Shown in pieces: positions 11,178 through 30,019 of a stretch of DNA of 40,089 nt. Position 1 is the first letter of the stretch. Each line of letters begins with the position of its first letter. This DNA is from Chitinophagales bacterium (GTDB taxonomy: Bacteria > Bacteroidota > Bacteroidia > Chitinophagales > UBA2359): assembly GCA_020629205.1 (NCBI GenBank), contig JAHDDV010000005.1, positions 1-40,089 of the forward strand, in the 5' to 3' direction. The notes beneath the pieces are model-generated. The model saw only the letters and a list, made by a program, of their open reading frames with translations, made no database searches and was not told the DNA's origin. The translations under genes and the position numbers were made by a program.

Positions 11178-14100
11178 ATGAAAAAAGTTCTCACACTATT
11201 AAGCAATATTCTTGTTCTGTTATTTTTGGTCAATGCTGGCCTTATGGCAGATTGCAACTTCGGCGTCTTCGATGCAGGAGCAGATGCAAATGTTTGTGGT
11301 CTCACTGCCACATTACAAGCAGGTGTCCCTTACTATGGAAATGGTGAATGGGCTGGTCCCGGGGTGTTTTCAGATCCAAATTCCGGCACAACTTCAGTGA
11401 CGGTCGCCGATTATGGAGCACACCTATTTTCCTGGACAATTACCAACCCCGATTGTCCTCCTTTCACAGATTTTGTGACCGTGATTTTTGATCCTCCGCC
11501 TAGTGAGGCGAACGGGGGAGCTGATATCACCGTTTGTGGTCTCAGTACAGCCATGCATGGTTTCGCCCCTGCCATCGGATCTGGCGTTTGGTCAGGTACG
11601 GGCCTGGACTTTGCGAACATCTATGACCCAGGCAGTTTGGTCACTGCTCCCGCGCACGGTAACTATACAGCAGTGTGGACAACTAGCAATTGTGATTGTG
11701 AGTTAAGTACGGATGCAGTCAGCCTGACCTTCTTAGCTTCCCTAACTGTGGATGCGGGTCCCGATGCTGAAGTATGCGGATTATCACATAATCTCAACGC
11801 CAGCAGCTCTGGGTCAACTGGTTATTGGTCTGGCCCAGGAATATTTTCTGATATTAACAGCCCAAGCAGTACTGTAACTGTTGCAGGGCAAGGGACTTAT
11901 GTCTTCTACTGGAATGCCACCAATGATTGCGGCACAACGAGCGATGCGGTTACAGTGAGTTTTACACACTCGGGTAATTCAGCCTTTGCCGGTGCCGATG
12001 TAACTGTCCACAGTTTATCCTATACTTTAGGTGCTACATTGCCGGCAGGAACCACTGGAACCTGGTCTGGAAATGGCAACTTTGCAAATGTGAACGCTGC
12101 AAACACTGTTGTAACAGTTCCAGGGCCGGGAACATATGTGTTCACCTGGACGATCAATGATGGCTGCGCAAGTTCTTCGGATTCAGTTACAGTGACTTTT
12201 GACCCCTGTACAGTGGAAGTAAACGCTGGTGAAGACATTGAAACTTGCGGATTATCCACTTACCTGAGTGCTCAGGTAAACACTTCAGGGACGGGAACCT
12301 GGTCTGGTTCCGCTAATTTTAGCAATCCAAATGATCCAAATACCTATGTCTCTGTAGATACTTATGGAGCGTACAATTTGATATGGACTGTCAATGATCC
12401 GATTTGTGGTTTTGTTTCTGATAATGTTGTTGTTGTCTTTGGAGAAGCACCCACTAGTGCCAATGCGGGGCCGGATGACAATACCTGTTCATTGAGTTAC
12501 ATGTTGCAAGCTGAGACTCCGGCAGTGGGAGAGGGGCATTGGACAGGCCCAGGTGTATTTTCAGATGTGAGTGATCCAAATGCTACAGTTACAGTTGCCT
12601 CACCTGGCAATTACAGCTTCTATTGGACGGTCACAAATTGCACCTGTCCACCTGTGGATGATTATGTCAATATCTATTTTGGGACAGAGACCCCAACTTC
12701 TCAGGCAGGTCCCGCAGGACAGACTTGTGGGCTGGCCTATGTTCTATCTGCAAATGCTCCAGCCGCAGGTATGACCGGCACCTGGACTGGCAATGGTACA
12801 TTTAGCAATCCTACTGATCCCAATACGACCGTTTCCGTTGCTGGACCGGGTACCTACAATTTCACATGGACAGTAGACGCCGGGGTCTGTGGTACTGCCT
12901 CTTCAAGTACCTATGTAGAGTTTACACAAGCACCACAAAACAACGGTGCTGGATCTGACATGAACGTTTGCGGAAATAGTGTGGTACTATCTGCTACTGC
13001 AGTGGCTCCTGGCTTAGAAGGATATTGGTCAGGACCCGCAACATTTGAGGACCCTCTGAATCCTGGAACGGTGGCCACGGTCGCAGGACCCGGTACCTAT
13101 ACTTTTTACTGGACAGTGGCTAATTGCTGTTGTGCGCCAGTTTCGGACGCTGTAGTGGTGACATTTAGTAGTGCAGGTGCTCCACCTCATGCGGGTGATG
13201 ATGCCTCGGCTTGTGGATATACTTTTCAGCTAGCTGCTAATACACCAAGCACAGGCACAGGGCAGTGGACGGGAAATGGAGTATTCACAAATGCTTCGAG
13301 CCCGACCTCTCTTGTCACGGTAGCAAGTGCTGGTAATTATACTTTCAATTGGACCGTAAGTACAGATTGCGGAAGTCAAAGTGACGATGTACATGTTCTT
13401 TTCCTTGGAGATGCTCCAGCCGCTCATGCAGGAAGTGATGACAACATTTGTGGCTTGACCTATGGACTAAATGCACAGTCACCCGCAGCAGGTATAGGCT
13501 ATTGGACTGGCCCAGGGGTATTTTCTGATCCTAACAATCCAGCCTCGACGGTAACAGTACCAGCTATTGGAACTTACAACTTTGTGTGGACGACGATAGG
13601 AAATTCCGCTTGTCCCTCTAACAGTGATCAAGTGAGCATCACCTTTACACAAAATGATCCCGATGTTAATGCTGGGCCTGACGCAAGTTATTGCAATCAA
13701 CTAAGCCATGTGCTAGCCGCTTCTGCAGCATCGCAAGGTGTTGGGAGCTGGACTGGAAACGGTAGCTTTAGCAATGTCAATGATCCAAATGCTACAGTGA
13801 CCGTTAGTGGCTATGGTACCTACAATTTTACATGGACTGTGAGCAACGGGACTTGTGGATCTGCCTCCGATGTGATGCAGGTGGTTTTTGCTGAGCAGCC
13901 TACAACTGTAAATGCAGGACCTGATGGAAGTAGTTGTTCCCTCGTGTACAATTTGACAGCCAGCAATCCGATAGGTGGAACGGGACAATGGTCTGGCCCA
14001 GGAGTATTCTCAAATGCAAATAGCCCGAATACAAATGTTCAAGTGAGTGGTCCCGGAACTTACACCTTTACCTACACAGTGAGCAATAGTGTTTGTGCTC

Positions 14101-17100
14101 CTGTGGAAGATTACGTAAACGTGACCTTTACTTCAGCACCCGACCCAGCCATTGCTGGACCGGATGCTAGCTACTGTAGCTTGTCAGCGACTCTTGCTGC
14201 TGTTCCAGCTACAGGTGGATATTGGTCGGTCCCAGCTGGGATCAGTATTAGTAATATCAACGATGAAAATGCCGTCATTACAGCAAGTACAGCTGGAACC
14301 TATACACTTACCTGGGTCACTTCAAATGTATGCTATGACAATAGTGACCAAGTTGTGATAAGTCTCAATCAAGCGCCTGCCGTACCCTATGCCGGAGCAG
14401 ATGCTTCTGCGTGTGGACACACATATCAGCTTCAAGGAACTGGTTCCGGAACCTGGTTTGGAGATGGCGTCTTTAGCAATCCTAATGATGCTAACAGTAC
14501 CGTTACAGTAGCGGCTGCAGGAACCTATAGTTTTAACTGGATCAGCTCCAATGATTGTGGTTCTGCATCTGATCAAGTAGAGATTACTTTCATAGATGGC
14601 CCGAATCCGGTAAATGCTGGTCAGGATGTCTCGACCTGCACCTTGTCTTACAATCTAATTGCAACAGGGGGCTCAGGAGGAAATGGAAACTGGACAGGTA
14701 ATGGAACTTTCAGTAATGCGGGTTCACAAAGTAGTATCGTTACAGTCGCCGCTCCTGGAACATACACCTATACCTATACAAGTACCAACAACTGTGGTTC
14801 TACATCCGACTCCGTTACTGTCACTTTTGGAGAGGCTCCAGAGCAAGCACAGGCAGGAGAAGATTTTGCTATCTGCGGCTTGACGGCCCAATTAAATGGT
14901 ATTCTTCCAAGTGGAACAACCGGGTTCTGGACTGGAACAACTTCTATTGATAGTCCAACAAATGCAGCTACTTTGGTAACTGCCCCATCTCCTGGAACAT
15001 ATACCTATACATGGACAATAAGCAATGCTTGTGCAAGTACAAGTGATGCAGTAAGTGTGACATTCCTCGGTAGCGCGCCGGAAGTAAATGCAGGAACGGA
15101 TGCTTCGGTCTGTAGCCTTGACTACGTATTAGCTGCCTCCGGTGGCTCGGGATCTTGGTCTGGACCAGGAACTTTCACTGATGCCAATTCACCAAACAGT
15201 GCAGTTAGTGTAGCCGCTCCGGGCATTTATACATTTACCTGGACTGGTGATGATCAATGTGGCATTAATAGCGATGAGGTTACAATTACTTTCGGGCAAG
15301 CACCTGGTGCAGCGCAAGCTGGTGACGATTTCGCTATTTGCGGTTTGAATGCAACGATCAACGCCATATTGCCGGCCAATACTACTGGGAGCTGGACTGG
15401 TAGTACTGCTATCTCGAATCCGACTTCGAGTAGCACAAATGTAACTGCTCCAGGTCCTGGGACTTATACCTATACCTGGACAGTTAGTAACTCCTGCGGT
15501 AGTATGAGTGATGCGATTAATGTTACCTTCCTTGGTGATGCACCAGCAGTAAATGCTGGGACAGACGCAAGTATCTGCAGCTTGAGCTATACATTAGCCG
15601 CCTCAGGAGGTGCAGGATCCTGGTCAGGTGCTGGTGTCTTTAGTGATGCCTCTCTGCCGAATAGTTCTGTTACGGTGAGCACTCCTGGATCTTATACTTT
15701 TACCTGGACAGGAAACAGTCAATGTGGATCTTCAAGTGATCAGGTGACGATTACATTTGGTGAACCGCCAGCTCCTTCAAATGCGGGAGAAGACTTTGCC
15801 GTATGTGGCTTAAGTACTAACCTAAACGCTGTGCTTCCTGCAAATGGAACAGGTAGCTGGACAAATGGTCAAGGAATCAATAACCCGGGCTTGGCGAACT
15901 CTTTAGTGAACGTGCCAAGTGCAGGGACCTACACCTACACCTGGACCAATAGCAATAGTTGTGGCAGCAGTTCGGATCAAGTAAATGTTACCTTCCTTGG
16001 AACGCTGACAGCTAATGCTGGTCCCGATCAAAGTGTTTGTGGTCTGAACGCTAATCTTGCTGCGCTGGCTCCCAATACTGGTACTGGCTCCTGGTCTGGA
16101 CCGGGGCTGTTTGCTAATGCGAATTCAACGATTACAAATGTGTCCGTCATAAGCCCAGGTACCTATACGTTCTACTGGACGGTTAGCGGTCAATGTGGGA
16201 CAAGCAGTGATGAGGTGCAAGTGACTTTCTCTAATCAGGCAACCGCCAATGCGGGTCTGGATATGGAGGTTTGTGGACTAACACACAACCTATCTGCTTC
16301 TGGTGGTTCTGGATTTTGGTCGGGCAATGGAGTATTTGCAAATGCAAATAGTCAAAACACGACGGTGACCGTCTCAAACTACGGTACCTATGACTTTACC
16401 TGGACATCTGCCGGTGGATCTTGCGGGGACAGCTCCGATTCGGTGCAGATTATCTTTGGCGAACAACCTGTGTTTGTTGAGGCGGGTCCTGATGTGGATG
16501 TATGCGGCTTGAGCTATGTGATGTCCGCGGCTATTCCTACAGTAGGAGAAGGAACCTGGGTGGGACCAGGATTGTTTAGCGACCCGAGTCAAGCCAATGC
16601 GACGGTAACAGTTCCTTCAGCAGGTACATATACCTTCACGTGGGTAGTAGAAAACTGTGTATGTCCTATCATCAGTGATCAAGTAACGATCACCTTTGGT
16701 GGCACTGCTCCTACAGCCAATGCAGGACCTGATCAAACGCTTTGTAGCCTATCTACCGCACTAGGGGCAACGGGCAGTGGAACATGGTCTGGTAATGGAG
16801 TGTTTTCGAACCCAAACAATCCCAATAGTGCTGTTTCTGTGGCTGCAGCTGGGAACTACACATTTACCTGGACAAGTTCAAACGAGTGTGGCAGTTCTTC
16901 AGATCAGGTTTCCATAAACTTTAACAACGGCTCTGCTACAGCCAATGCCGGTCCGGATATTCAGGTTTGTGGTCTTTCAGGTCAAATGTCTGGGCTGCTG
17001 CCATCAGGTGCAACAGGTACTTGGTCAGGTACAGCGACCTTCGCAAACCCTGGTGATCCCAACTCCGTGATCTCTGTCGATCAACCTGGTATCTATCAGG

Positions 17101-20100
17101 TAGCCTGGAGTGTAACCGGTACTTGTGGCTCCGGTGTCGATTATGCGGTCGTTGAATTCGGTCTTCCACCAACGGTGGTTAATGCCGGTCCTGATGGCAC
17201 CACTTGTGGGCTGAACTACAACCTTTCTGCGGCTGTTCCGGATATTGGAATTGGCACTTGGCAAGGTCCTGGACTATTTGGGGATGCTAATGAGCCAGTT
17301 ACTACAGTTCAAGTTGCATCGCCTGGAACATATACCTTCACCTGGACAGTCAGCAATTGTAACTGTCCACTGGTAACAGACGAAGTGACCATTACATTTG
17401 GCGAGGGAGGTCTCATTGCTGATGCAGGTGCGGATCAAGATGCTTGTGGTTTGAGCGCTGCCTTAAGTGCCATCCTTCCTGCTGGTGCCACTGGACAATG
17501 GTCCGGGCCCGGCAGCTTCACCGATCCGGCAAATCCGAATTCAGTAGTGCAAGTAGCTGCGACGGGAACCCAGACATTTACATGGACAGTGACAAGTGAA
17601 TGTGGTTCTAGCAGCGATCAGGTCAATATCAACTTTGGGGGTAGTGCATCACCGGCAAATGCAGGGGTTGATCAGGAAGTCTGTGGATTAGGTACCAGTC
17701 TTAATGCCGTATTGCCTCCGGGAGCAACAGGGCAGTGGTCTGGGCCTGGAACATTTACTGATCCATCCAACCCTAACACAGTTGTTGCGGTGGCAGCAGC
17801 TGGAACCAGCACATTTACCTGGACAGTTAGCAGCGAATGTGGCTCCAGCAGTGATGAAGTTATGGTAAGCTTCGATGCGGGCTCCGTGAGCGCCAATGCA
17901 GGAACTGATCAATTTGTCTGTGGGCTAAGTTTTGCACTAAGTGCTGAGCAGCCTGCCGGGACCAGCGGTCAATGGACAGGTCCAGGAACCTTCACTGACG
18001 CTAACGACCCAAATACCATTGTACAAGTTGCAGCTGGTGGCCCCTCCATGTTTACATGGACGCTTACAAGTGATTGTGGCACTTCTAGTGATGCTGTAAC
18101 GATAACGTTTGGTGAAGATCCAGAACTAGCCTATGCAGGAGCTGATCAAAGTACCTGTGGCTTAGTGGCTTTGCTCAGCGGAACACCGCTAATGGGCGGT
18201 CAATGGACTGGCAATGGTAGCTTCTCAAATCCGAATGAAGGCAATACTTCTGTGACTGTAGTAGCACCTGGAGTTTATACCTTCACCTATACAGTAAGTA
18301 ATACCTGCGGTACTTCAAGTGATGAAGTGACAGTGACCTTTGAAGAGGGTGCAGATATTGCCAATGCCGGACCAGACCAATCTGTTTGTAGTCTTTCCAC
18401 GGTTATGGCGGCAACGGGTTCAGGTGTCTGGACTGGTGATGGAATCTTTGATAGCAATGACGCAAATGCCACAGTGACTGTTACGAGTCCAGGAACCTAT
18501 CTATTTACCTGGACAGCTTCTGATGATTGCGGTACTTCAAGTGATCAGGTGGAAGTGGTGTTTGGTCAATCACCTAGTCTTGCGGATGCTGGAGAAAACA
18601 TGCAGGTTTGTGGACTCAGTTATACACTTGATGGGAATCTGCCTGCGATTGGGGTAGGTACGTGGTCAGGAGCAGGGACTTTCAGTAATGCTAATCTTGC
18701 GAATAGTACGGTCACGGTAGAAGACTATGGTGATTACACTTTCAGTTGGGAAATAGAAAATGATTGTGGCTCAGACATGGACTTGGTTATCATTAGTTTC
18801 GTCGAAGGAGAAACGGCGAATGCAGGTACGGGTGGAGACATTTGTGGTCTGAGCTTTGATCTCAACGCGTCCGGTTCCGGTACCTGGACAGGTAACGGCA
18901 ACTTCGCCGATGCGAATAGTGCCAGCACCACTGTATCCGTTGTTGCCCCAGGAACGTATACCTTTACCTGGACGATCGATGGTGATTGTGCAGTGAATAG
19001 CTCCGCTAATGTATCCGTAACGTTTATTGAGGATACTGCCGCCGCGAATGCAGGCGCGGACAGTGCTACCTGTGGAGAGATTTATACTCTTTCGGCAAAT
19101 CCGGCTTTTGGAACATGGTCGGGTCCTGGAGAATTTGCGGATGCGAACGATCCGAATACCACTGTAACAGTTACCTCTTTTGGGCCTGCCACCTTTGTTT
19201 GGACGAGCAGCAGTGATTGTGGAACCTCTAGCGATGAGGTGGTCATCAATTTTAATGATCCAAACCCAACGACGGCAGCTGTAGGTGAAAACGAAACTAT
19301 TTGTGGATTGTCTTACCAATTGACTGGAAACGTTCCTAGTGTTGGAACGGGTACCTGGTCGGGTGCAGGAAGCTTCTCTGACGTTAATGATCCCGCTGCC
19401 ATAGTTACAGTACCGGAAACAGGCGATTATACATTTGCCTGGACGATAGAAAATGAATGTGATTCTTCGATGGATCTAATGATCATCTCCTTTGAAGAAG
19501 GATCAGCAACTGCTGATGCGGGTGAGGATGCTGCGGTTTGTGGCCTCTCACATACGCTTTCAGCTACGGCCGCGATCGGCGGTACATGGTCTGGAGATGC
19601 AGGAGTAGTCTTTACTGATGTAAATAATGCCTCTAGCAGTGTCACTGTTCCGGCTCCCGGTACATATACCTTTACATGGACTGTCGACAGTGATTGTGGT
19701 CAAGCCAGCGATATGGTAATGGTCGCCTTTGAAACGTCGCCAGCAGCAGACGCTGGCGCAGATGGCAGTACCTGCGGCTTGACTTATGATCTGAATGCAA
19801 TATATACCACGGAGGGTCAGTCTGGTACCTGGTCAGGCAATGGAATTTTTTCCGATGCGAATAGCGCAAACAGCAGTGTTACAGTAGTTGCTCCCGGTAC
19901 TTATACTTACACCTGGACAACTTCCGCAATCGGTGATTGTCCACAATCGTCTGATCAGGTGTCGGTGACATTTACTGAAGGCATTGCCGCGGATGCAGGG
20001 CCTGATGCGACCACTTGTGGTATTTTCCTTTACGCGCTCGAAGCGAGCTTGCCGGAAGGTGCTAGCGGAATGTGGTCAGGAGCTGGTACTTTTGCCAATG

Positions 20101-22643
20101 CCAGTGATCCGAACACAACGGTTGCTGTTCTTGATCCTGGTACTTTCACCTTTACCTGGACAGTGAGCGGTACTTCCTGTGGAGATGGCAGCGATGAAGT
20201 GGAGATCACTTACATCGAGCCCCTAAATGCCAATGCCGGTGCTGATGGGGTCAATTGTGATCTTGACTATGTGCTGAATGCATCGAATGCACCAGAAGGA
20301 GCGACTGGCTACTGGTCTGCCGTAGATGGTTTGAGCTTTAGCGCGATGGATGATCCTTCTGCCACGGTTACCGCAGCTGAAGCAGGGATTTATACTTTGA
20401 CCTGGAATCTGGAACAAGAAGGCTGCAACAGTGATACCGATCAGGTAGTGCTTGACCTTGGTGGATCTGATGCCATCACTGCGGATGCCGGACCTGATGA
20501 TCAACAATGCGGGTTGACTTTTGAATTGAGTGCTCAGCTAAATGCAAATGCCACGGGTTATTGGACAGGTATTGGTGAATTTGCCGATGCGAATAGTCCT
20601 ACTACAATGGTGACAGTGGGTGCATATGGAGTCTACATCTTCACTTGGCATGTAGCGTCTCCTTGTGGTACTTCGACGGATCAAGTACAGGTGGAGTTTG
20701 GGACACAACCTACTATAGTAAATGCTGGTCCGGATGACTCGGTTTGTGGTTTATCCTACACATTTCAGGCAGAGATTCCAGATGTAGGATTGGGCTTCTG
20801 GCTTGGCGAGGGAGAATTTAGCAGCACGGCAAATCCTGCAGCTACTGTTACAGTGCCAGATTATGGTACCTATACTTTTGTGTGGTCAGTTGAGAACTGC
20901 AATTGCCCTACGGTGTCAGATGAGATCGTCATTACTTTTGAAGACTGTGATCCAAACAACGACGTCGTGACGGCTGTTGATGATGACTACAGCACAGAGA
21001 TGAACACGGAGTTGATGATATCTCCAATGAACAATGATCTCAATCCAGGAGGTGGAGATCTCTTCTTTACGGCTGTTACGCAGCCAGCCAATGGAACGGT
21101 GGTGCCAGTTGATGATGCGCTGGTGTATCAGCCAGATGAGGGGTATACAGGAACAGATGTATTTACTTATACTGTTTGTAATTCAGAAGGAAGTTGTGAT
21201 ACCGCGATCGTGACCGTAGATATTGTATATACCCCAAGCGACTGCGAGTATGCCGGTGCTTTCTGTACAGAACCATTAACTCCAGTGACGATCTGTATAC
21301 TACCCTGCGAGGTATCTGGTGGATTTATCACAGACCTGACAACGACTTACAATTGTAGTTTGAGTGTTACTTCCGATATCTGTTTTACATACACACCGCT
21401 GCCAGAATATCTTGGCGAGGATCAAATAGTAATTTCCTATTGTGATGCTGATGGAAACTGTGAAACACATTATGCTGATATTTCCGTTGGGAACTGTGAG
21501 GGGACCGATCCGGATCCTAATAGCACACCTATCGCACAAGATGATTTAGGGTCAACTGTTAGTGAAGGCTCGATCACGATTTCGCCGCTTTCAAATGACA
21601 GTGATCCAGATGATGATGAGTTGACGATTGCTGCCGTTGGTGATGCCGCGAACGGAACGGTTGTTCAAGATGGGTATGATCTCATCTATACACCTGCAGC
21701 TGGCTTTACAGGTACGGACTTTTTTGGTTATACTGTTTGTGATCCGGAAGGAGCTTGCGCTACAGCCATTGTAAGCATTACAGTTGTCGGAGGAGAGGGG
21801 AATAATCCTCCGTTTGCCCAGGAAGATGCGGTTTCTATTTTACAAAACGAGATTGCAGGTGTTGATGTATTGACAAATGATTCGGACCCAGACGGAGATA
21901 GTTTCTTTATCAGTAGCTATACTCAACCATCAAATGGAAATGTTGTCCAAGGAGGCAGTACTTTATTGTACACGCCAAATACAGATTATGTAGGAACGGA
22001 CATGTTTACATACGAAATCTGTGATACAGAAGGTAACTGTACTTTTGGGACGGTAAATGTTACGATCACAGCTGATGTGGCTTGCGACAATCCTGCCATT
22101 TGTACAGAGCCTATCACGCCGACAGAGGTGTGCGCTAATTTCTGCACCATCGACAATTCAGATGTGACAATTCAAGACGTTCATACACTATTTGATTGCA
22201 GTATCAATCTGCTAGGAGGAACATGTGTGCAATATACTGGTTTACCTGCCTTCATTGGAGAGGAAGAGTTAGAGATCACGGGTTGTGATTCAGACGGAAA
22301 CTGTGAGACAGTCGTGGTTATTGTAAATGTGGTGGAGGATTGTGACAATCTTGAAGAGGGTAAGAGTCCTGAAGGAGAGTCTCTCATGATTCCGAACTTC
22401 TTCTCGCCCAATGGGGATGGATTCAATGATTACTGGCTGGTTGATAATCTGCCTGAGGAAGATGATCTATATGTACGGGTATTCGACCTGAATGGAAGAA
22501 TGCTAATGGAAGAACAAATCTGGGGGATTTTACTTTGGGACGGTAGAGTAGGGGGCATTACGCTTAATAGCGGAATGTATGCTTACACGCTAGGTAATGG
22601 GAAAAATGTGCATTACAGCGGTCTCCTAAGTATCGGACGATAG
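11178..22643 (+). CDS. Giant repetitive T9SS-secreted adhesin-like protein (3,821 aa)
   Basis: A signal peptide (MKKVLTLLSNILVLLFLVNA-GLMA, cleavage before D25) is followed by 41 tandem Ig/PKD-like repeats averaging 79 residues (about 25-3254). Each follows the scheme AGxDxxxCGLxxxL...GxWxGxGxF...TVxVxxxGTYTFxWTxxxxCGxxSDxVxxxF. Three tandem-95/cadherin-like domains then alternate with two nine-cysteine modules (residues about 3356-3440 and 3636-3722). The end (about 3735-3821) has IPNFFSPNGDGFNDYW and VFDLNGRM, the gliding-motility-associated (CHU_C/type B) T9SS sorting domain. Most repeats carry two cysteines at positions expected for a B-F strand disulfide. Scanning the translation I found no Lys or Arg between residues 3 and 3729, so the mature protein is extremely acidic. 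By family knowledge such proteins are cell-surface adhesins or matrix fibres; the ligand is unknown. A strong terminator follows at 22664. No similar gene is adjacent. Confidence 0.95.
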   Translation: MKKVLTLLSNILVLLFLVNAGLMADCNFGVFDAGADANVCGLTATLQAGVPYYGNGEWAGPGVFSDPNSGTTSVTVADYGAHLFSWTITNPDCPPFTDFVTVIFDPPPSEANGGADITVCGLSTAMHGFAPAIGSGVWSGTGLDFANIYDPGSLVTAPAHGNYTAVWTTSNCDCELSTDAVSLTFLASLTVDAGPDAEVCGLSHNLNASSSGSTGYWSGPGIFSDINSPSSTVTVAGQGTYVFYWNATNDCGTTSDAVTVSFTHSGNSAFAGADVTVHSLSYTLGATLPAGTTGTWSGNGNFANVNAANTVVTVPGPGTYVFTWTINDGCASSSDSVTVTFDPCTVEVNAGEDIETCGLSTYLSAQVNTSGTGTWSGSANFSNPNDPNTYVSVDTYGAYNLIWTVNDPICGFVSDNVVVVFGEAPTSANAGPDDNTCSLSYMLQAETPAVGEGHWTGPGVFSDVSDPNATVTVASPGNYSFYWTVTNCTCPPVDDYVNIYFGTETPTSQAGPAGQTCGLAYVLSANAPAAGMTGTWTGNGTFSNPTDPNTTVSVAGPGTYNFTWTVDAGVCGTASSSTYVEFTQAPQNNGAGSDMNVCGNSVVLSATAVAPGLEGYWSGPATFEDPLNPGTVATVAGPGTYTFYWTVANCCCAPVSDAVVVTFSSAGAPPHAGDDASACGYTFQLAANTPSTGTGQWTGNGVFTNASSPTSLVTVASAGNYTFNWTVSTDCGSQSDDVHVLFLGDAPAAHAGSDDNICGLTYGLNAQSPAAGIGYWTGPGVFSDPNNPASTVTVPAIGTYNFVWTTIGNSACPSNSDQVSITFTQNDPDVNAGPDASYCNQLSHVLAASAASQGVGSWTGNGSFSNVNDPNATVTVSGYGTYNFTWTVSNGTCGSASDVMQVVFAEQPTTVNAGPDGSSCSLVYNLTASNPIGGTGQWSGPGVFSNANSPNTNVQVSGPGTYTFTYTVSNSVCAPVEDYVNVTFTSAPDPAIAGPDASYCSLSATLAAVPATGGYWSVPAGISISNINDENAVITASTAGTYTLTWVTSNVCYDNSDQVVISLNQAPAVPYAGADASACGHTYQLQGTGSGTWFGDGVFSNPNDANSTVTVAAAGTYSFNWISSNDCGSASDQVEITFIDGPNPVNAGQDVSTCTLSYNLIATGGSGGNGNWTGNGTFSNAGSQSSIVTVAAPGTYTYTYTSTNNCGSTSDSVTVTFGEAPEQAQAGEDFAICGLTAQLNGILPSGTTGFWTGTTSIDSPTNAATLVTAPSPGTYTYTWTISNACASTSDAVSVTFLGSAPEVNAGTDASVCSLDYVLAASGGSGSWSGPGTFTDANSPNSAVSVAAPGIYTFTWTGDDQCGINSDEVTITFGQAPGAAQAGDDFAICGLNATINAILPANTTGSWTGSTAISNPTSSSTNVTAPGPGTYTYTWTVSNSCGSMSDAINVTFLGDAPAVNAGTDASICSLSYTLAASGGAGSWSGAGVFSDASLPNSSVTVSTPGSYTFTWTGNSQCGSSSDQVTITFGEPPAPSNAGEDFAVCGLSTNLNAVLPANGTGSWTNGQGINNPGLANSLVNVPSAGTYTYTWTNSNSCGSSSDQVNVTFLGTLTANAGPDQSVCGLNANLAALAPNTGTGSWSGPGLFANANSTITNVSVISPGTYTFYWTVSGQCGTSSDEVQVTFSNQATANAGLDMEVCGLTHNLSASGGSGFWSGNGVFANANSQNTTVTVSNYGTYDFTWTSAGGSCGDSSDSVQIIFGEQPVFVEAGPDVDVCGLSYVMSAAIPTVGEGTWVGPGLFSDPSQANATVTVPSAGTYTFTWVVENCVCPIISDQVTITFGGTAPTANAGPDQTLCSLSTALGATGSGTWSGNGVFSNPNNPNSAVSVAAAGNYTFTWTSSNECGSSSDQVSINFNNGSATANAGPDIQVCGLSGQMSGLLPSGATGTWSGTATFANPGDPNSVISVDQPGIYQVAWSVTGTCGSGVDYAVVEFGLPPTVVNAGPDGTTCGLNYNLSAAVPDIGIGTWQGPGLFGDANEPVTTVQVASPGTYTFTWTVSNCNCPLVTDEVTITFGEGGLIADAGADQDACGLSAALSAILPAGATGQWSGPGSFTDPANPNSVVQVAATGTQTFTWTVTSECGSSSDQVNINFGGSASPANAGVDQEVCGLGTSLNAVLPPGATGQWSGPGTFTDPSNPNTVVAVAAAGTSTFTWTVSSECGSSSDEVMVSFDAGSVSANAGTDQFVCGLSFALSAEQPAGTSGQWTGPGTFTDANDPNTIVQVAAGGPSMFTWTLTSDCGTSSDAVTITFGEDPELAYAGADQSTCGLVALLSGTPLMGGQWTGNGSFSNPNEGNTSVTVVAPGVYTFTYTVSNTCGTSSDEVTVTFEEGADIANAGPDQSVCSLSTVMAATGSGVWTGDGIFDSNDANATVTVTSPGTYLFTWTASDDCGTSSDQVEVVFGQSPSLADAGENMQVCGLSYTLDGNLPAIGVGTWSGAGTFSNANLANSTVTVEDYGDYTFSWEIENDCGSDMDLVIISFVEGETANAGTGGDICGLSFDLNASGSGTWTGNGNFADANSASTTVSVVAPGTYTFTWTIDGDCAVNSSANVSVTFIEDTAAANAGADSATCGEIYTLSANPAFGTWSGPGEFADANDPNTTVTVTSFGPATFVWTSSSDCGTSSDEVVINFNDPNPTTAAVGENETICGLSYQLTGNVPSVGTGTWSGAGSFSDVNDPAAIVTVPETGDYTFAWTIENECDSSMDLMIISFEEGSATADAGEDAAVCGLSHTLSATAAIGGTWSGDAGVVFTDVNNASSSVTVPAPGTYTFTWTVDSDCGQASDMVMVAFETSPAADAGADGSTCGLTYDLNAIYTTEGQSGTWSGNGIFSDANSANSSVTVVAPGTYTYTWTTSAIGDCPQSSDQVSVTFTEGIAADAGPDATTCGIFLYALEASLPEGASGMWSGAGTFANASDPNTTVAVLDPGTFTFTWTVSGTSCGDGSDEVEITYIEPLNANAGADGVNCDLDYVLNASNAPEGATGYWSAVDGLSFSAMDDPSATVTAAEAGIYTLTWNLEQEGCNSDTDQVVLDLGGSDAITADAGPDDQQCGLTFELSAQLNANATGYWTGIGEFADANSPTTMVTVGAYGVYIFTWHVASPCGTSTDQVQVEFGTQPTIVNAGPDDSVCGLSYTFQAEIPDVGLGFWLGEGEFSSTANPAATVTVPDYGTYTFVWSVENCNCPTVSDEIVITFEDCDPNNDVVTAVDDDYSTEMNTELMISPMNNDLNPGGGDLFFTAVTQPANGTVVPVDDALVYQPDEGYTGTDVFTYTVCNSEGSCDTAIVTVDIVYTPSDCEYAGAFCTEPLTPVTICILPCEVSGGFITDLTTTYNCSLSVTSDICFTYTPLPEYLGEDQIVISYCDADGNCETHYADISVGNCEGTDPDPNSTPIAQDDLGSTVSEGSITISPLSNDSDPDDDELTIAAVGDAANGTVVQDGYDLIYTPAAGFTGTDFFGYTVCDPEGACATAIVSITVVGGEGNNPPFAQEDAVSILQNEIAGVDVLTNDSDPDGDSFFISSYTQPSNGNVVQGGSTLLYTPNTDYVGTDMFTYEICDTEGNCTFGTVNVTITADVACDNPAICTEPITPTEVCANFCTIDNSDVTIQDVHTLFDCSINLLGGTCVQYTGLPAFIGEEELEITGCDSDGNCETVVVIVNVVEDCDNLEEGKSPEGESLMIPNFFSPNGDGFNDYWLVDNLPEEDDLYVRVFDLNGRMLMEEQIWGILLWDGRVGGITLNSGMYAYTLGNGKNVHYSGLLSIGR
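14859..16018 (+). repeat. Two-domain higher-order repeat, period 465 nt
   Basis: The marker (E/D)DFA(I/V)CGL begins at 14859, 15324 and 15789, spaced exactly 465 nt (155 residues) each time. Repeats 16 and 18 resemble each other, as do 17 and 19 (NAGTDAS(V/I)CSL, AASGG(S/A)GSWSG). A two-domain unit was therefore duplicated as a block. Repeat 20 starts a third copy that then diverges. Confidence 0.8.
17418..18128 (+). repeat. Three near-identical domain repeats, period exactly 237 nt
   Basis: Repeats 27, 28 and 29 begin at 17418, 17655 and 17892, and the next unit at 18129, all 237 nt (79 residues) apart. They share AGxDQxxCGL, GQW(S/T)GPG(S/T)FTD, NPN and TFTWT with few differences. This is the most recently homogenised-looking single-domain block in the array. 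Confidence 0.8.
21243..21497 (+). other. Nine-cysteine module, copy 1 (inside the giant protein)
   Basis: Residues 3356-3440 have cysteine spacing C-x6-C-x9-C-x3-C-x15-C-x8-C-x19-C-x5-C-x10-C, with CTEPLTP near the start and CDADGNCET near the end. It is duplicated at 22083-22343 and lies between tandem-95-like domains. I do not recognise it as a named domain. Confidence 0.75.
22083..22343 (+). other. Nine-cysteine module, copy 2 (inside the giant protein)
   Basis: Residues 3636-3722 repeat the cysteine order of the module at 21243, with CTEPITP and CDSDGNCET in matching places. It precedes the sorting domain. The nine cysteines imply four internal disulfides plus one that is free or intermolecular, if all are conserved for pairing. 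Confidence 0.75.
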
Positions 22644-22940: not shown

Positions 22941-24386
22941 CTAAAAAATTTCCGCTTCTTTTTTTGCGAGAAGGCGCTCTTGTTCCACTGTATTTAAGTA
23001 TGCTTTTGAGCCTTCGATAGGATATTTACCGGAGAAGCAAGCCATGCAATAATGTCCGTTGTACAACTGAATCATGTCTTCCAGTGATTGGTAGATGACG
23101 GCATCTGCATTCATGAATTTTCGAATTTCTTCCAGGTCTTTACTAGCCGCTATCAGCTCTGTACTGATGGCCATATCGATTCCGTATACGCATGGATGTT
23201 TGATCGGCGGGGCGGCCGATATGAAATAGACTTCAGTGGCACCGGCATCTCTAATGATCTGGACAATGCGCTGGGAAGTGGTTCCCCTCACGATAGAATC
23301 ATCAACAACTGCCACCTTCTTGCCTGCTACAACATCTCGAATGGGATTCAGTTTATGTCGCACCATTTTCTCGCGCTGCTCTTGTGTGGGAGCAATAAAA
23401 CTTCGACCGACATGGTTGTTTTTGACGAGTCCACGACGATAAGGAACCTGCAGCTCTTCAGCCATTGCTGAGGCAAAGAAGTAGGCAGATGAAGGGACAT
23501 CGATCACGATATCAGGCTGAAGGCCACTGGTTTTGACCTTTCGCGCGAGCATCTTGCCCATCTTTACACGCTCGCTAGCAACTAGCTTTTTATGAAGTAC
23601 GGAATCTTCTCTGGCGAAGTAAATGTATTCAAATATGCAAAATTTTCTATCACTTGTTCTGCAATCTTTAACGTGCATCTTGCCTTCAGTGTCGATGAAG
23701 ACAGCCTGTCCAGGTTCGAGATCACAAAGTAGTTCATAGCCTAGATAGTCGAAGCAGGTGCTTTCAGAGGAGAAGCCATATGTGATTCCTTTTTCTGTGG
23801 TCTTTTGTCCTAGCAAGAGCGGTCGAATGCCGTTAGGATCGGAGAAGGCGAGCAGACCGTGATTAGCGATGAGTGCGATGGAGGAGTAAGCCCCTTTCAC
23901 TTTCTCCTGCAGCGAGATGACTGCATTGAAGATGTCGGCTACTTTCAGCTTTTTTAGGTCTTTGCTATTCGCTAATTCAGTAGCGAAGGTATAGAGAATG
24001 AGTTCGAGGTCATTGGAAGTTTGGGGAAGTATATGGTAATCTTCGTAAAGGCTTTTTCGGAGTTGGTTGAAGTTGATGATATTGCCGTTGTGTACCATGG
24101 ATATACCGAAGGGATAAGTCACAGAAAAGGGCTGCGCATTGACCAGTTCATTGGAGCCTTGAGTGGTGTATCGTACATGCCCTAGCCCCATGTTTCCCTT
24201 CAGTCGTTTGAGGTGTTTGGATTCAAAAACATTGTTGACTAAGCCGAGCCCTTTCTTTGTGTGAAAGTTGTTTTCGAAAGTAGTGATACCAGCCGCATCC
24301 TGACCACGATGTTGCAGGGCCGTGAGGCCGGATACCAGATCATAGACGACTTTTTGATTTCCTGCAAATCCAAGAATTCCACACAT
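22941..24386 (-). CDS. purF: Amidophosphoribosyltransferase
   Basis: This enzyme catalyses the first committed step of purine synthesis, PRPP plus glutamine to phosphoribosylamine. It has 481 residues. The N-terminal nucleophile Cys2 is directly after the start Met (MCGILGF), so no propeptide needs removal beyond Met. The glutaminase half has LQHRGQDAAG, GHVRYTT and MVHNGNI. The phosphoribosyltransferase half has the PRPP loop VVDDSIVRGTTS. Cysteines in KFCIFEYIYFAR, KHPCVYGIDM and HYCMAC match the four [4Fe-4S] ligand positions known in the Bacillus-type enzyme, so an iron-sulfur cluster is predicted. It is the last gene of the pur operon, 12 bp after purN. A divergent palindromic repeat follows it. 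Confidence 0.97.
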   Translation of the reverse strand: MCGILGFAGNQKVVYDLVSGLTALQHRGQDAAGITTFENNFHTKKGLGLVNNVFESKHLKRLKGNMGLGHVRYTTQGSNELVNAQPFSVTYPFGISMVHNGNIINFNQLRKSLYEDYHILPQTSNDLELILYTFATELANSKDLKKLKVADIFNAVISLQEKVKGAYSSIALIANHGLLAFSDPNGIRPLLLGQKTTEKGITYGFSSESTCFDYLGYELLCDLEPGQAVFIDTEGKMHVKDCRTSDRKFCIFEYIYFAREDSVLHKKLVASERVKMGKMLARKVKTSGLQPDIVIDVPSSAYFFASAMAEELQVPYRRGLVKNNHVGRSFIAPTQEQREKMVRHKLNPIRDVVAGKKVAVVDDSIVRGTTSQRIVQIIRDAGATEVYFISAAPPIKHPCVYGIDMAISTELIAASKDLEEIRKFMNADAVIYQSLEDMIQLYNGHYCMACFSGKYPIEGSKAYLNTVEQERLLAKKEAEIF

Positions 24387-24398
24387 GTTGTTTGGGGT

Positions 24399-24977
24399 TT
24401 ATGCCTTGTTTTTAAAAAGCTGATAGAGTACTTCAGAATAGAATTTGTGTTCAACTTCCAGCCCACGTTTTACGACTTCTTGTAAGTTTTCTGCCCTTCT
24501 TAGGTCGACCTTTCTTTTGTCCAAGACCTTACCAGTGTCTACACCCTTGTCGACCAGATGTACTGTGATGTAGGTGTGATCTAGTTTGTTTTCGTGTGCC
24601 CATTCGTAGGCTCCAAGACCTTTGAAGGCTTGCGTGTCTGCCGGGTGAATGTTGATAATTCGGTTCGGGAATTTCTTGAGAAAAGGTTCAGAAATAATGC
24701 GCATATAGCCAGCCAGAACAATGTAGTCGAGATTGAGAGGCTCCAGCTTATCAATGATCTGTTGGTCAAAGGATTCGCGGGAACTCCCCTTGCTCTTGAT
24801 CCACATAGTATTCAGTCCGAGATTAGCTGCTGCCTTCAATCCTGCTGCCTTGGGCGTATTGCTAAAAACGACTACAATTTCGCAAACATCGCCAAGCGCT
24901 CCATCCTCGCATTGTTTGGCGATGGCAAGCATGTTGCTGCCCCGACCGGAGATGAAGATGGCAATACGTTTTTTCAT
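24399..24977 (-). CDS. purN: Phosphoribosylglycinamide formyltransferase
   Basis: This enzyme transfers a formyl group from 10-formyl-tetrahydrofolate to GAR, the third step of purine synthesis. It has 192 residues, normal for PurN. It starts MKKRIAIFISGRGSNML; the catalytic region has Asn and His in IINIHP and Asp in VDKGVDTGKVL. The usual NIHPSLLPAFKG appears here as HPADTQAFKG, a local deviation that keeps the key residues. It sits between purD (8-bp gap) and purF (12-bp gap) in the pur operon. Confidence 0.94.
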   Translation of the reverse strand: MKKRIAIFISGRGSNMLAIAKQCEDGALGDVCEIVVVFSNTPKAAGLKAAANLGLNTMWIKSKGSSRESFDQQIIDKLEPLNLDYIVLAGYMRIISEPFLKKFPNRIINIHPADTQAFKGLGAYEWAHENKLDHTYITVHLVDKGVDTGKVLDKRKVDLRRAENLQEVVKRGLEVEHKFYSEVLYQLFKNKA

Positions 24978-24985
24978 TAGCGATG

Positions 24986-26260
24986 CTATGATTGGATAGG
25001 GAGAACGTTTCTACGTAATCCGATGTCCTTTCTGTAAGTTTTGTTTTCAAACTGAATCTTGTCCACTTCGGAATAGACCTTTTGGATGGCCGATTCCAGC
25101 GTCTTCGCATGTGCCACCACATTGAGTACCCTTCCACCATTCGTGCTAATTGTACCCTTATCTCTTTGTGTTCCGGCATGAAAAATCATAGAACCATGAT
25201 CGAGATTTTCGGAAACGAGGATCGGAAACCCTTTTTCATATTTGTATGGGTATCCGCTTGAAACGAGCACCACGTCTACAAAGTAACCATCGTGAAAGTC
25301 GAGTTTAATTTGCGACAGCGTCTCGTTCAGGCAAGCTTGTATAAGCTCGTATAGATCAGATTTCAAGGCAGGCAGAATGACTTCAGTTTCTGGGTCACCC
25401 AATCGTACATTGTATTCAAGAAGCCTGGGACCCTCTTCGGTTATCATGATGCCAAAGTACAGTATACCCTTGTATGTTATTTGTTCTTTTACTAATCCAA
25501 ACATAGTTGGGTTGATGATGTCGCGGTAAATTTTACGCAACTGCTCAATGCCCAGAAAGGGGAGAGGACAGAAGGCCCCCATGCCGCCGGTATTAGGTCC
25601 TTTATCGTCTTCCAGAAGTTGTTTGTGATCTTGGGAGGGGGACAAGATTCGTATATGTTGTCCATCTGTAAACCCTATGATGGAGAGTTCGACTCCTTGT
25701 AATCTGCGCTCAATTAGGAAGGGGAATTCGCTTCCATGAATGGCTTCTAATTCTGAGAGTGCTTCGAATGCTTGTCGATGTGTCTTGCATACGTAGACTC
25801 CTTTCCCTCCGGCCAGTCCATCGTATTTGATGACTAATTTACCATCGAGTAGCTTGATGCATTCTGTAGCTTGGTCGATATGCGAGAAGCTCCAGAACTC
25901 AGCGGTTTTTACCTTGTTGCGTTGCATGAATTCCTTGGCGAAAGTCTTCGAGCCTTCTAATTGGGCAGCAAACATATTGGGTCCGAAGACTTGAATTTCA
26001 GTGCCTTCGAAGTAGTTGACAATACCTTCTGTCAAAGGTAATTCAGGCCCCACTACAATTAGCTCTATGCTTTGTTTTTTGCAAAAGGATTTGATGGCGG
26101 GGAAGTCGAGCAAATCGAGATCAACATTGTGGTCCGTGCCGCCATTGCCAGGGGCCACAAATACTTTTGCAACCAAAGGAGATTGCTCAAGCTTCCAGGC
26201 AATTGCGTGCTCTCGTCCTCCCGAACCCAAAACGAGAATCTTAGCTTTGTTGCTCTGCAT
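24986..26260 (-). CDS. purD: Phosphoribosylamine-glycine ligase
   Basis: This ATP-grasp enzyme joins phosphoribosylamine and glycine to form GAR, the second purine step. It has 424 residues. It starts with VLGSGGREHAIAWKL and GNGGT, and has VVGPELPLTEGIV, the ATP-grasp segment KYDGLAGGKGVYVC, GPNTGGMGAFCP and the metal-binding region LEYNVRLGDPETEVILP. Its first 20 nt overlap the end of purB (26241-26260), suggesting coupled translation. purN follows after 8 bp. Confidence 0.97.
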   Translation of the reverse strand: MQSNKAKILVLGSGGREHAIAWKLEQSPLVAKVFVAPGNGGTDHNVDLDLLDFPAIKSFCKKQSIELIVVGPELPLTEGIVNYFEGTEIQVFGPNMFAAQLEGSKTFAKEFMQRNKVKTAEFWSFSHIDQATECIKLLDGKLVIKYDGLAGGKGVYVCKTHRQAFEALSELEAIHGSEFPFLIERRLQGVELSIIGFTDGQHIRILSPSQDHKQLLEDDKGPNTGGMGAFCPLPFLGIEQLRKIYRDIINPTMFGLVKEQITYKGILYFGIMITEEGPRLLEYNVRLGDPETEVILPALKSDLYELIQACLNETLSQIKLDFHDGYFVDVVLVSSGYPYKYEKGFPILVSENLDHGSMIFHAGTQRDKGTISTNGGRVLNVVAHAKTLESAIQKVYSEVDKIQFENKTYRKDIGLRRNVLPIQS

Positions 26261-27647
26261 GGGCTTGTTTCATTTGGTTCTGGAGAAACTCCTCTGCTTG
26301 GGCAATGACCGTGTTTCCAATACGTACTGCGTCTCCGATGTAGTCTCGGGTTCTTAGGTTTTTTAATTCTTCTTTTACTTTTGCATTGACATCCAGACTA
26401 TCTATGAATTCATGTAACTCCTGCAGGCTGATTTTCTTACCACGGGTGTGAGCTTTCAGTAGGTTGTATGGGTCTTCTAACCCGTGGATCTTGAGAATTG
26501 TTTGCACTGGTTCTGCCAGCAGCTCTGGACTATCTTCAAGGTGGGCTATGCAGTTTTGTTCATTTAGTTGCAGCTTATCCAGTCCCCGAATGGTCTCGGA
26601 GATGGCGAGATGTGCATAGGAGAGTGCAGTGCCCACATTTCGGCTGACCGTACTATCTGAGAGATCTCGTTGCATGCGAGATCTACACAGTCGATTTGAC
26701 ATTTTCGAGAGTAAGGCATTGGAGAGGCTTAGGTTGCCTTCGCTGTTTTCAAAGTTGATTGGATTGACTTTGTGTGGCATGGTAGAAGAGCCGACCTCAC
26801 CGGGCTTGCTACGCTCAAAGAAAAGGTCGCGTGAGATGTATTGCCAGCAGTCCAAATCTAAATCCATGACAATGTTGTTGATTTGGCGACAGAGATTGAA
26901 GTACTGAGCCCAGGTGTCATGGTCCTCGATTTGAGTTGTGGCAATGTTTGGTTCCAGGCCTAGTTCCCGGATCATCTTGTAGGAGAACTCCATCCAGTCG
27001 TAATCTGGAAAGGCGGCTTTCATGGCAGAGAAGTTTCCTACAGCTCCATTGAGTTTTCCTGCGAAGCGAAAGGAATGAATCAGCTTCATGATTCTTAGCA
27101 GCCGGTTTGCAAATACAGCTAGTTCTTTGCCGGCAGTCGTAGGGCTTGCTTTTTGTCCGTGGGTGAAGGCTGGAAATGGCTTATCCATCCACTGACTAGC
27201 CAGACTGCAGATTCTCATCAGCAGTCTTTGATGCAATTTGGCTTGCGATTCGGTCCGGTATTCTTCCAGCAGCAGGCTATGAGCGAGGTTGTTGACATCT
27301 TCCGATGTGAGGGCGAAGTGGATTAGGTTCTCGTTACGCAGATTCAGTTTTGTTCGAAGAAATATCTCACATGCCTTCACATCGTGACGAGTGGTTTGTT
27401 CAATTTCTTTGATGGCTTGGAAATCTTGATCTGTAAAGGTCTGCAGGCTGGCTTCGATGGCATGGAGTTCTTCTTCAGCAAAGCTATCGAAGAGTCCTGT
27501 CTTGTTTAAGGCCAGCAAGTATTTTAGCTCGACTTTGCATCTTGAGCGCATGAGCGCTTTTTCAGAAAAATAGTATGGAAGTTCCCGAAGCTTTGATGCG
27601 TATCGGCCATCAAGTGGTGAAATGCAATCTCGGTCCATTGGAGTCAT
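26241..27647 (-). CDS. purB: Adenylosuccinate lyase
   Basis: This enzyme removes fumarate twice in purine synthesis, from SAICAR and from adenylosuccinate. It has 468 residues. The fumarase/aspartase-superfamily signature is SSTMPHKVNPINFE; TSEDVNNLA and THGQKASPTT carry catalytic-site residues, and the start (ISPLDGRYA) is that of the longer, E. coli-like PurB class. Either Met1 or Met4 could be the start. It lies 37 bp downstream of the purCE fusion and overlaps purD by 20 nt. SAICAR made by the upstream gene product is its direct substrate. Confidence 0.97.
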   Translation of the reverse strand: MTPMDRDCISPLDGRYASKLRELPYYFSEKALMRSRCKVELKYLLALNKTGLFDSFAEEELHAIEASLQTFTDQDFQAIKEIEQTTRHDVKACEIFLRTKLNLRNENLIHFALTSEDVNNLAHSLLLEEYRTESQAKLHQRLLMRICSLASQWMDKPFPAFTHGQKASPTTAGKELAVFANRLLRIMKLIHSFRFAGKLNGAVGNFSAMKAAFPDYDWMEFSYKMIRELGLEPNIATTQIEDHDTWAQYFNLCRQINNIVMDLDLDCWQYISRDLFFERSKPGEVGSSTMPHKVNPINFENSEGNLSLSNALLSKMSNRLCRSRMQRDLSDSTVSRNVGTALSYAHLAISETIRGLDKLQLNEQNCIAHLEDSPELLAEPVQTILKIHGLEDPYNLLKAHTRGKKISLQELHEFIDSLDVNAKVKEELKNLRTRDYIGDAVRIGNTVIAQAEEFLQNQMKQAHAEQQS

Positions 27648-27684: not shown

Positions 27685-29124
27685 CTATGCTTCTTTTTTC
27701 AGTGCTTTGAGGCCATGTTGTTCCTTGATCCATTGTTCTTCACGAATGCGCTGATCAGCTTCTTTCAACTGTTGTTTTATGTTCCTAATCATTTCAGACA
27801 TTTGGCGACGAACAGAAGGTATGTTTAGACTCCTCAAGGCTGCATAGGCAGCATTGTCAGGATGCACCGCTGTTGTAGCTGGTGTTTTGGATGGCATGAC
27901 CAAGCTTGAATTTACATTGGTCTGAAGATCGACTGAGTCTTTGAATGGAGGACAATTTATTACTGGCAGGTTTAGGTTTGCGGCAAGAGCTCCCCCGAGA
28001 CCATTGGATCTTCCTGCAACAGCGATTACAGCACCCGGCTCAACTGAATTGTTGTAAGTGTGTGCAGCTTTGAGGATTTCCTCTCCATTTTTATGTGCAG
28101 AGATCACTCGAAACTCAGTAGCTACTTGAGGGAAGCTTTGAAGGTATCGATGGATCTTCTGGCAGTGTTCAAGGTCGGATGGGCTACCCATGATTATGGC
28201 TACGTATCCTTCGCGAATGAAGCCTTCATTCACCAGGTTTCTAGACAAACGATCATTAATATCTTCGTTTGATAGGTTTGGTAGCTTTTCATCCGTTAGG
28301 ATCTCGTAGATTTCCTGGTATAATCTGGATGTTTCTTGCACTACATTTTCAGGTAATCTGTCTGGTACCTTTCCTTCCTGTTTGTTTTCCAGAAGCCACT
28401 GCCTTACGTACTCTTTGGATACTTCAGTGCTTGTTCTTGGATCTTCTTGGTATTCGCTTGCTCGCCAGAATCTTGAAGAGTCCGGAGTATGAATTTCATC
28501 AATTAAGATCAAGTCGCCATTGAGAATTCCAAACTCATATTTTGTGTCAACGAGGATTAGTCCACGTTCAGCAGCGTGCTTACTACCTAAGTCGAAGAGT
28601 TGAAGGGCAATTGCTGCCATCTTATCGTAAGTGTCTTGAGATACAAGACCGTTTGCGACGATAGCTTCAGGGCTGATGTTAGTGTCGTCTTCATCTTTTG
28701 TGGTTGGTGTGAGAATTGGACTGTCGAATGCCTGATTCTTTTGCATTCCATCGGGAATGGAAAGTCCGCAAATGCTCCTTTCTCCTTTTTCGTAGCCTCT
28801 CCACATGGATCCAGTGAGAAAGCCTCTTACGATCATCTCCACTTTGATTGCTTGCGCTTCATGTACCAGCGTCATGTTTGGGTCGATTGCCTTGATGACA
28901 TGATTTGGCACTATATGCTCCGTTTTTTTGAACCAGAAATTTGCCAGGCTATTGAGTACAGCGCCTTTGTGAGGGATTGGTGTTTTCGAATTCTTGTTGA
29001 ACGCAGAGATTCTATCCGTTACGACGATGAGTCTTCTTTCCTCATCGATTTTGTAGCTATCTCTCACTTTTCCTGAGTGTAGCTTTTGCAACTGCGGTGT
29101 TGAAAATGTCTGGAGGCAATTCAT
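27685..29124 (-). CDS. Bifunctional SAICAR synthetase / AIR carboxylase (PurC-PurE fusion)
   Basis: This 479-residue fusion is laid out like animal PAICS. Residues 1 to about 300 are SAICAR synthetase (LHSGKVRDSYK, VVTDRISAFN, EMIVRGFLTGSMWRGY, DTKYEFG, LIDEIHTPDSSRFW). Residues about 305-460 are a PurE domain (GYVAIIMGSPSD, ISAHK at 341-345, AVAGRSNGLG at 368-377, CPPFKDS). The GRSNGLG loop and the ending EADQRIRE resemble class II (animal/Treponema-type) AIR carboxylase, which uses CO2 directly. Class I PurE instead has a GAAHLPGM-like loop and needs PurK. This fits the absence of purK in the operon. It is the first gene of the pur operon. A TAnnTTTG box lies about 65 nt upstream, and no riboswitch fold was recognised in the leader. 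Confidence 0.93.
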   Translation of the reverse strand: MNCLQTFSTPQLQKLHSGKVRDSYKIDEERRLIVVTDRISAFNKNSKTPIPHKGAVLNSLANFWFKKTEHIVPNHVIKAIDPNMTLVHEAQAIKVEMIVRGFLTGSMWRGYEKGERSICGLSIPDGMQKNQAFDSPILTPTTKDEDDTNISPEAIVANGLVSQDTYDKMAAIALQLFDLGSKHAAERGLILVDTKYEFGILNGDLILIDEIHTPDSSRFWRASEYQEDPRTSTEVSKEYVRQWLLENKQEGKVPDRLPENVVQETSRLYQEIYEILTDEKLPNLSNEDINDRLSRNLVNEGFIREGYVAIIMGSPSDLEHCQKIHRYLQSFPQVATEFRVISAHKNGEEILKAAHTYNNSVEPGAVIAVAGRSNGLGGALAANLNLPVINCPPFKDSVDLQTNVNSSLVMPSKTPATTAVHPDNAAYAALRSLNIPSVRRQMSEMIRNIKQQLKEADQRIREEQWIKEQHGLKALKKEA

Positions 29125-29302: not shown

Positions 29303-30019
29303 CTAGTAGCTAATGTTTGAAAATTGCCCACTAAGGATACCGTCACCTGTTAATATGCCACTAGCATCCGTACAGGTAAAACTGAACGTTCCGCTAACCG
29401 TTTGGCTGCCAGTATCAAATGTTGTGAACGTAATAGAGCCATTGGCTGAATCGAGTAGTTGGCAGACTACAGCTTCAGTCGGTTGCAGTGAATTGTCATT
29501 GAAAAGGGTGACACCCGCCAGCAAAGGATACGTACCCGTTTCAAAGGCTCCGTCATGTGCAAGGACAACACTTCTGCCTGCTGCTGCATCTGCACCTTGA
29601 ATTCGGATAACACCACTGTTTACGACAGCATCGGCCATTGGTGCTTCCCATTCTTCTCCGTTGATGGTAGCGCTGAAATTGCTGCCAGCAACTGGATCAC
29701 AAGCAGGGCAATCATCGCCGCCACAATCTACTCCTGTTTCGGTACCATTCATTATTCCATCAGTGCAAGTAGGGCCTCCGGTAATTCCGCAGGGTGGACA
29801 AGGTCCCCCACAATCGACACCGGTTTCGGTTTGATTTTGAATATTGTCATTACAAGTTTGAGGAATGATCACGCAGGCATCGCATGGTCCCCCACAATCA
29901 ATGCCCAATTCACCCTGATTTTGTTCACCATCTGTACAGGTGTGGTCCTTGTTGCAGGAAGTGAAGATGAGCGATGAAATCACCATCATCATCACGAAAA
30001 TATAACCAGTTTGCTTCAT
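29303..30019 (-). CDS. Lipoprotein with three DCGG-type cysteine repeats
   Basis: This 238-residue predicted lipoprotein has signal MKQTGYIFVMMMVISSLIFT-S-C22. Three copies of a 23-24 residue motif, (T)C-x-D-x3-N-x2-E-x-G-(I/V)-D-C-G-G-x-C-x2-C, follow at about 27-49, 55-77 and 84-107. This motif is widespread in secreted proteins of Bacteroidota and Myxococcota. The remaining part (about 112-238) starts NFSATINGEEWEA and has IRIQGADA, TGTYPLL and TVSGTFSFTC, resembling small beta-barrel lipoprotein domains of the DUF6252 kind. Its role is unknown; surface or periplasmic binding is the most that can be inferred. It is monocistronic, with a strong terminator downstream and its own candidate promoter upstream. 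Confidence 0.88.
   Translation of the reverse strand: MKQTGYIFVMMMVISSLIFTSCNKDHTCTDGEQNQGELGIDCGGPCDACVIIPQTCNDNIQNQTETGVDCGGPCPPCGITGGPTCTDGIMNGTETGVDCGGDDCPACDPVAGSNFSATINGEEWEAPMADAVVNSGVIRIQGADAAAGRSVVLAHDGAFETGTYPLLAGVTLFNDNSLQPTEAVVCQLLDSANGSITFTTFDTGSQTVSGTFSFTCTDASGILTGDGILSGQFSNISY

Follow-up and report, generated by a model that had tools for sequence, protein, structure and literature searches.

A bacterial PurC–PurE fusion with a predicted class II, CO2-using AIR carboxylase half, in a genome where no PurK was found

The textbook difference between purine synthesis in animals and in microbes lies at the step from AIR to CAIR, which for that reason is a drug target. Does the animal arrangement, in which a CO2-using PurE half is fused to PurC in one chain, have a counterpart in bacteria? 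The question is raised by one gene in the stretch of DNA analysed here, 40,089 nucleotides from a Chitinophagales bacterium (hereafter the window). In the passages available from the literature, AIR carboxylase is described as almost exclusively eukaryotic (PMC4177761), the CO2-using fused enzyme is assigned to eukaryotes in reviews (PMC4177761, PMC10912719) and fused PurCE is called common in eukaryotes (PMC3261824), whereas a class II PurE is named in Treponema denticola (PMC9376930). No report of a bacterial PurC–PurE fusion was found among the open-licence papers searched, and such proteins may be annotated in protein databases.

A sequence-only reading of the window had proposed a PurC–PurE fusion with the domain order of animal PAICS, and the gene, here named purCE, bears out both points and adds the strand, which that reading did not give. 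purCE is a single open frame on the minus strand, with its ATG at 29124 and its stop at 27685, encoding 479 residues; the plus strand over the same interval (27685–29124) is full of stops. Both domains lie in one chain, PurC first, as in a PAICS-like bifunctional enzyme (Table 1). The AGRSNGLG loop and the EADQRIRE end read earlier from the PurE half were also found, the latter as a C-terminal stretch of that half at residues 455–462. At the site equivalent to the SAHK motif, the class I proteins examined have SAHR instead.

Table 1. Positions of purCE, its domains and motifs, and the pur genes that follow it in the window
Feature	Position	Strand	Basis
purCE, 479-aa PurC–PurE fusion (predicted SAICAR synthetase + class II AIR carboxylase)	27685..29124	minus	ORF, Pfam, predicted structure
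PurC (SAICAR synthetase) domain, long yeast/Mycobacterium type	28375..29085	minus	Pfam SAICAR_synt, residues 14–250, E 2.8e-71
PurE (AIR carboxylase) domain	27769..28203	minus	Pfam AIRC, residues 308–452, E 8.4e-32
MGSPSD phosphate/ribose-binding motif, residues 312–317	28174..28191	minus	residue roles from passages of PMC9376930
SAHK motif with general-base histidine, residues 342–345	28090..28101	minus	His role from passages of PMC9376930
AGRSNGLG class II loop, residues 370–377	27994..28017	minus	sequence reading
purB, adenylosuccinate lyase, next gene after purCE	26241..27647	minus	
purD, phosphoribosylamine-glycine ligase	24986..26260	minus	
purN, phosphoribosylglycinamide formyltransferase	24399..24977	minus	
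purF, amidophosphoribosyltransferase	22941..24386	minus	

The PurE half resembles class II enzymes. Against the PDB its top four matches were all class II (4ja0, human PAICS and two T. denticola entries, 60.9–91.1 bits), with scores of 91 bits for 4ja0, 86.5 for human 2h31 and 62.7 for T. denticola 3rg8 against 45 for the best class I entry. When the 18 AIR-carboxylase site residues of human PAICS listed in passages of PMC9376930 were compared, 17 were identical in the PurE half, the exception being Thr275, which is replaced by proline. The class I motifs SAHR and AGAGGAAHLPG are absent from it. The NCBIfam PurE mutase domain model TIGR01162 would name this half, yet its score of 100 bits falls far under the cut-off of 149.6. 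The whole chain was also predicted as a monomer from a 17-row alignment (mean pLDDT 88.9, pTM 0.83); its PurE fold was closest to T. denticola PurE (Z 20.9, compared with 19.4 for the best class I structure), and its PurC fold was closest to yeast SAICAR synthase 2cnq (Z 33.4).

Phylogenetic analysis gave the same assignment. In a PurE tree of 62 rows, class I (32 rows) was split from class II (30 rows) with support of 100/100, and the PurE half sat outside the class I clade, in class II with animal PAICS and T. denticola PurE. The earlier proposal of a class II, CO2-using half is therefore supported by sequence and tree, and the grouping with class I that could have refuted it was not seen. 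The 18 fused PurE rows formed one clade (100/98), separate from animal PAICS PurE, with the animals beside it at 95/79. A sister relationship between the two is not firm, as neither placing the animals outside (p-AU 0.35) nor placing the fused forms outside (p-AU 0.31) was rejected. Sequence and tree thus show the PurE half to be of class II, and its use of CO2 is predicted.

Next, we consider the genes around purCE and in the rest of the genome. purCE is the first gene of a tight same-strand cluster, purCE-purB-purD-purN-purF, with gaps of 37, −20, 8 and 12 bases. The earlier statement that this operon lacks purK held, and the genome-wide search that it called for extended it: in the assembly (5.8 Mb in 579 contigs, 90.8% complete) PurK was not found, the best match to TIGR01161 scoring 44.8 bits where the cut-off is 318.4. 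Inspection of the five ATP-grasp stretches identified in the genome agreed with this, four of them being biotin/pyruvate-carboxylase-like and the fifth (72 aa, L005) matching a D-alanine ligase model weakly. A purK elsewhere, named beforehand as evidence against the proposal, was thus not encountered in this genome. The search of the same genome for AIRC domains returned purCE as its sole match, with no second PurE found, and PurH is encoded elsewhere in the genome. No Rfam RNA, riboswitches included, reached the gathering score in the window. As to other neighbours, a DUF6252 protein is encoded directly upstream of purCE (29303–30019, minus strand), and its homologues adjoin purF in two genomes of the window's family (G324 and G326). 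Further along, at 11178–22643 on the plus strand, lies the gene for a secreted repeat protein of 3821 aa, which combines PKD/Ig-like and cadherin-like domains with a type IX secretion signal domain (CHU_C).

We hold it very probable that purCE is a bacterial counterpart of PAICS, with a PurK-free, CO2-using PurE half, built in bacteria and spread horizontally. The class II PurE half would carboxylate AIR directly with CO2 to give CAIR, without ATP or PurK, and the PurC half would join CAIR and aspartate, with ATP, to give SAICAR, which would then be cleaved by PurB, encoded by the next gene. PurK and one ATP would be skipped in this way. The two halves, a PurC of the long type and a PurE of class II, would have been joined in bacteria. 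By analogy with PAICS, the protein may assemble as an octamer, and CAIR might possibly be passed between the two sites.

One alternative, which we regard as very improbable, is that the PurE half is in practice an N5-CAIR mutase, its substrate forming spontaneously or being made by a PurK missed in the assembly. The completeness and the number of contigs given above leave some room for the latter, an archaeal class I PurE without PurK is explained in this manner in passages of PMC3261824, and most Cloacimonadota lack a clear PurK (see below). The class II sequence, the loop and the lysine of SAHK argue against a mutase, as does the distribution of PurK in the window's own family.

This family offers a natural test, covering 20 genomes. 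An intact fusion is present in five of them (G000, G314, G321, G325 and G327; 82–98% complete), all without PurK and without a second PurE. PurK together with a separate class I PurE is present in five others (G315, G320, G322, G324 and G326), and none of these has an intact fusion. In G320, G324 and G326 the fused PurE half is dead, with 0–3 of the 18 site residues left and the SAH deleted, and was unrecognised by Pfam in both genomes of this trio that were scanned; the G315 protein ends right at the PurC/PurE junction, leaving a PurC stub; and G322 carries an ordinary Bacteroidota PurC that was never fused. PurK is thus found in none of the five genomes with an intact fusion and in all five where the PurE half is dead, has been deleted or was never attached, an exclusion without exception (Fisher p 0.008, ignoring kinship; because the three dead-half genomes are of one genus, the independent events number approximately three). 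That PurK and an intact PurE half exclude each other across the family supports the PurK-free mechanism.

The other ten genomes of the family contain neither state. In G317 all that was found of PurC is a fragment at a contig end, and PurK is absent; matches to PurC and PurE are lacking in nine (G309–G313, G316, G318, G319 and G323). Four of these nine, namely G309 (of the window's genus, 96% complete), G310 (98%), G311 and G313, are also without PurH, and thus are probably purine auxotrophs. The remaining five (G312, G316, G318, G319 and G323; 68–86% complete) have PurH.

Outside the family the picture is less simple. The absence of PurK was rejected as a general proof, since 113 of 117 Cloacimonadota genomes, 32 with the fusion and 81 without, have no clear PurK. 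The fusion is full-length in 30 Cloacimonadota genomes and present as fragments cut at contig ends in two more; a clear PurK was detected in 0/32 of these and in 4/85 of the genomes without fusion. As the absence of PurK is the rule in Cloacimonadota, it gives the mechanism no support there. Furthermore, two Bacteroidota genomes from another family of the same class (G072 and G166; loci L074 and L075, with L039 and L040) have a fusion whose loop reads AGLSNGLG rather than AGRSNGLG, one site residue being changed. Both also encode a class I-like PurE whose motifs are SPHR and AGGGG, and despite this PurK was not found in either.

A separate observation concerns the unfused PurE of Cloacimonadota (L179–L194 and L201–L237), where a third loop type, AG(M/L)(A/S)A(H/A)LPG, follows SAHR. 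It occurs in 44 unfused, PurK-less genomes, and AGAGGAAHLPG occurs in all four PurK-bearing ones; G413 has both loop types, and G474 has AGAGG with no PurK found. The third type may be another PurK-free form of PurE.

Where did the fusion come from? The PurC half had been read as bacterial or yeast-like and the fusion as perhaps an independent joining, a view that the match scores of PurC favour. The PurC half scored 190 bits with yeast PurC and 156 with that of Mycobacterium abscessus, but 28 with human PAICS; conversely, a short-type PurC query from M. jannaschii scored 99–100 bits with animal PAICS and 54 with yeast. One clade of the PurC tree (100/99) took in every fused half together with the stub and the dead-half forms, and the ordinary Bacteroidota PurC (22 rows, 99/99) lay apart from it. 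In Chloroflexi, purC and a class II purE were adjacent and unfused in 6/6 loci examined, an arrangement that may resemble the state before joining.

These data bear on the very unlikely alternative that the fusion was captured whole from a eukaryote as an animal-type PAICS gene. The shared domain order and the position of the PurE half beside the animals (95/79) would fit such a capture, and the class II PurE of Archaeoglobus is interpreted as eukaryote-derived in passages of PMC3261824. However, the PurC half is of the long type, whereas animal PurC is of the short type, so that descent of both halves from an animal PAICS gene does not fit, and for this reason we set the capture of a eukaryotic PAICS aside. 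The clade in which the PurC half lies (100/99), shared with ordinary PurC of Bacteroidota and Chloroflexi, and the adjoining but unfused Chloroflexi genes as a possible pre-joining state, argue in the same direction. From the difference in PurC type, the joining in purCE was most likely independent of that in animal PAICS; purCE would thus work like PAICS without being an orthologous fusion.

The fusion is sparsely distributed among the genomes surveyed, which are incomplete MAG assemblies. A full-length form was found in 3/296 sampled Bacteroidota genomes, that of the window included, and a pattern-limited scan of named genomes (28 loci) added one 'Flavobacteriaceae', one Chlorobiota and two Cloacimonadota records. 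In most of the clusters examined purD, purN and purF come after the fusion, preceded in some clusters by purB, and on the Cloacimonadota contig L191 the order purCE-purB-purD-purN-purF is identical to that of the window. A single clade of all fusion-type PurC from the window's family was rejected (p-AU 0.007), as was a clade uniting the fusion-type PurC with the ordinary PurC of the family member G322 (5e-6); Bacteroidota and Chlorobiota fusions as one clade were not rejected (p-AU 0.34). The two rejections and the patchy occurrence suggest that the fusion gene, along with purD-purN-purF, has moved among Bacteroidota, Cloacimonadota and Chlorobiota, in part at least by horizontal transfer.

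The dead PurE halves were analysed further by comparing substitution rates. Between G324 and G326, dN/dS was 0.084 for PurC and 0.032 for the dead PurE half; between either of these and G320 it was ~0.10 for PurC and 0.10–0.23 for the dead half, all values being rough because dS is high in some pairs. The low dN/dS indicates that the remnant is not drifting freely, and the dead halves of G320, G324 and G326 are under purifying selection. They are probably kept because they serve a structural purpose, such as assembly. That the PurE half of the window is itself already such a non-catalytic scaffold is very doubtful, for although selected dead halves exist in the same family, the window half keeps 17/18 site residues compared with 0–3 in the dead ones, and its genome, which has purH and the other genes of the cluster, yielded no other PurE.

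Returning to a catalytic, PurK-free PurE half in purCE, a broader scenario can be drawn, to which we give about an even chance. A mobile purine operon built around the PurK-free, CO2-using PurCE would move among Cloacimonadota, Chlorobiota and Bacteroidota, and upon meeting a resident PurK and class I PurE its PurE half would be cut off, or made dead and yet be selected as a structural part of PurC. This would amount to a natural swap of the two known CAIR routes.

How does purCE compare with known systems? With animal PAICS (human 2h31 and 6yb8; invertebrate 4ja0) it shares the two activities, predicted in purCE, the domain order and a class II PurE half with MGSxSD, SAHK, AGRSNGLG and the 17 conserved site residues; it differs in its long yeast/Mycobacterium-type PurC and in lying in a bacterial operon. 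T. denticola PurE (3rg8) is likewise bacterial and class II, and has the nearest PurE fold, but it stands alone, has an AGRSNALS loop and belongs to a class II branch with Chloroflexi and Acidobacteriota PurE rather than to that of purCE. The E. coli-type class I PurE shares the pathway step and a homologous fold, but it carries SAHR and AGAGGAAHLPG and works with the ATP-using PurK; the window half has neither motif, and its genome has no detected PurK. Yeast and Mycobacterium PurC (1a48 and 3r9r) are of the long type like the PurC half of purCE, but are stand-alone proteins. What is new is not the chemistry but a bacterial fusion family, most likely built independently, along with its operon and the partial decay that it shows where PurK is present.

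Since the bacterial fusion has the layout of the animal enzyme but another type of PurC, this layout would have arisen more than once. From the conserved dead halves it seems that the PurE fold has a second function, keeping the PurC part together. Moreover, the two routes to CAIR replace each other within one family, providing natural before-and-after pairs, and such pairs let one ask why ATP and PurK are required by one route but not by the other, and whether the supply of CO2 decides between them.
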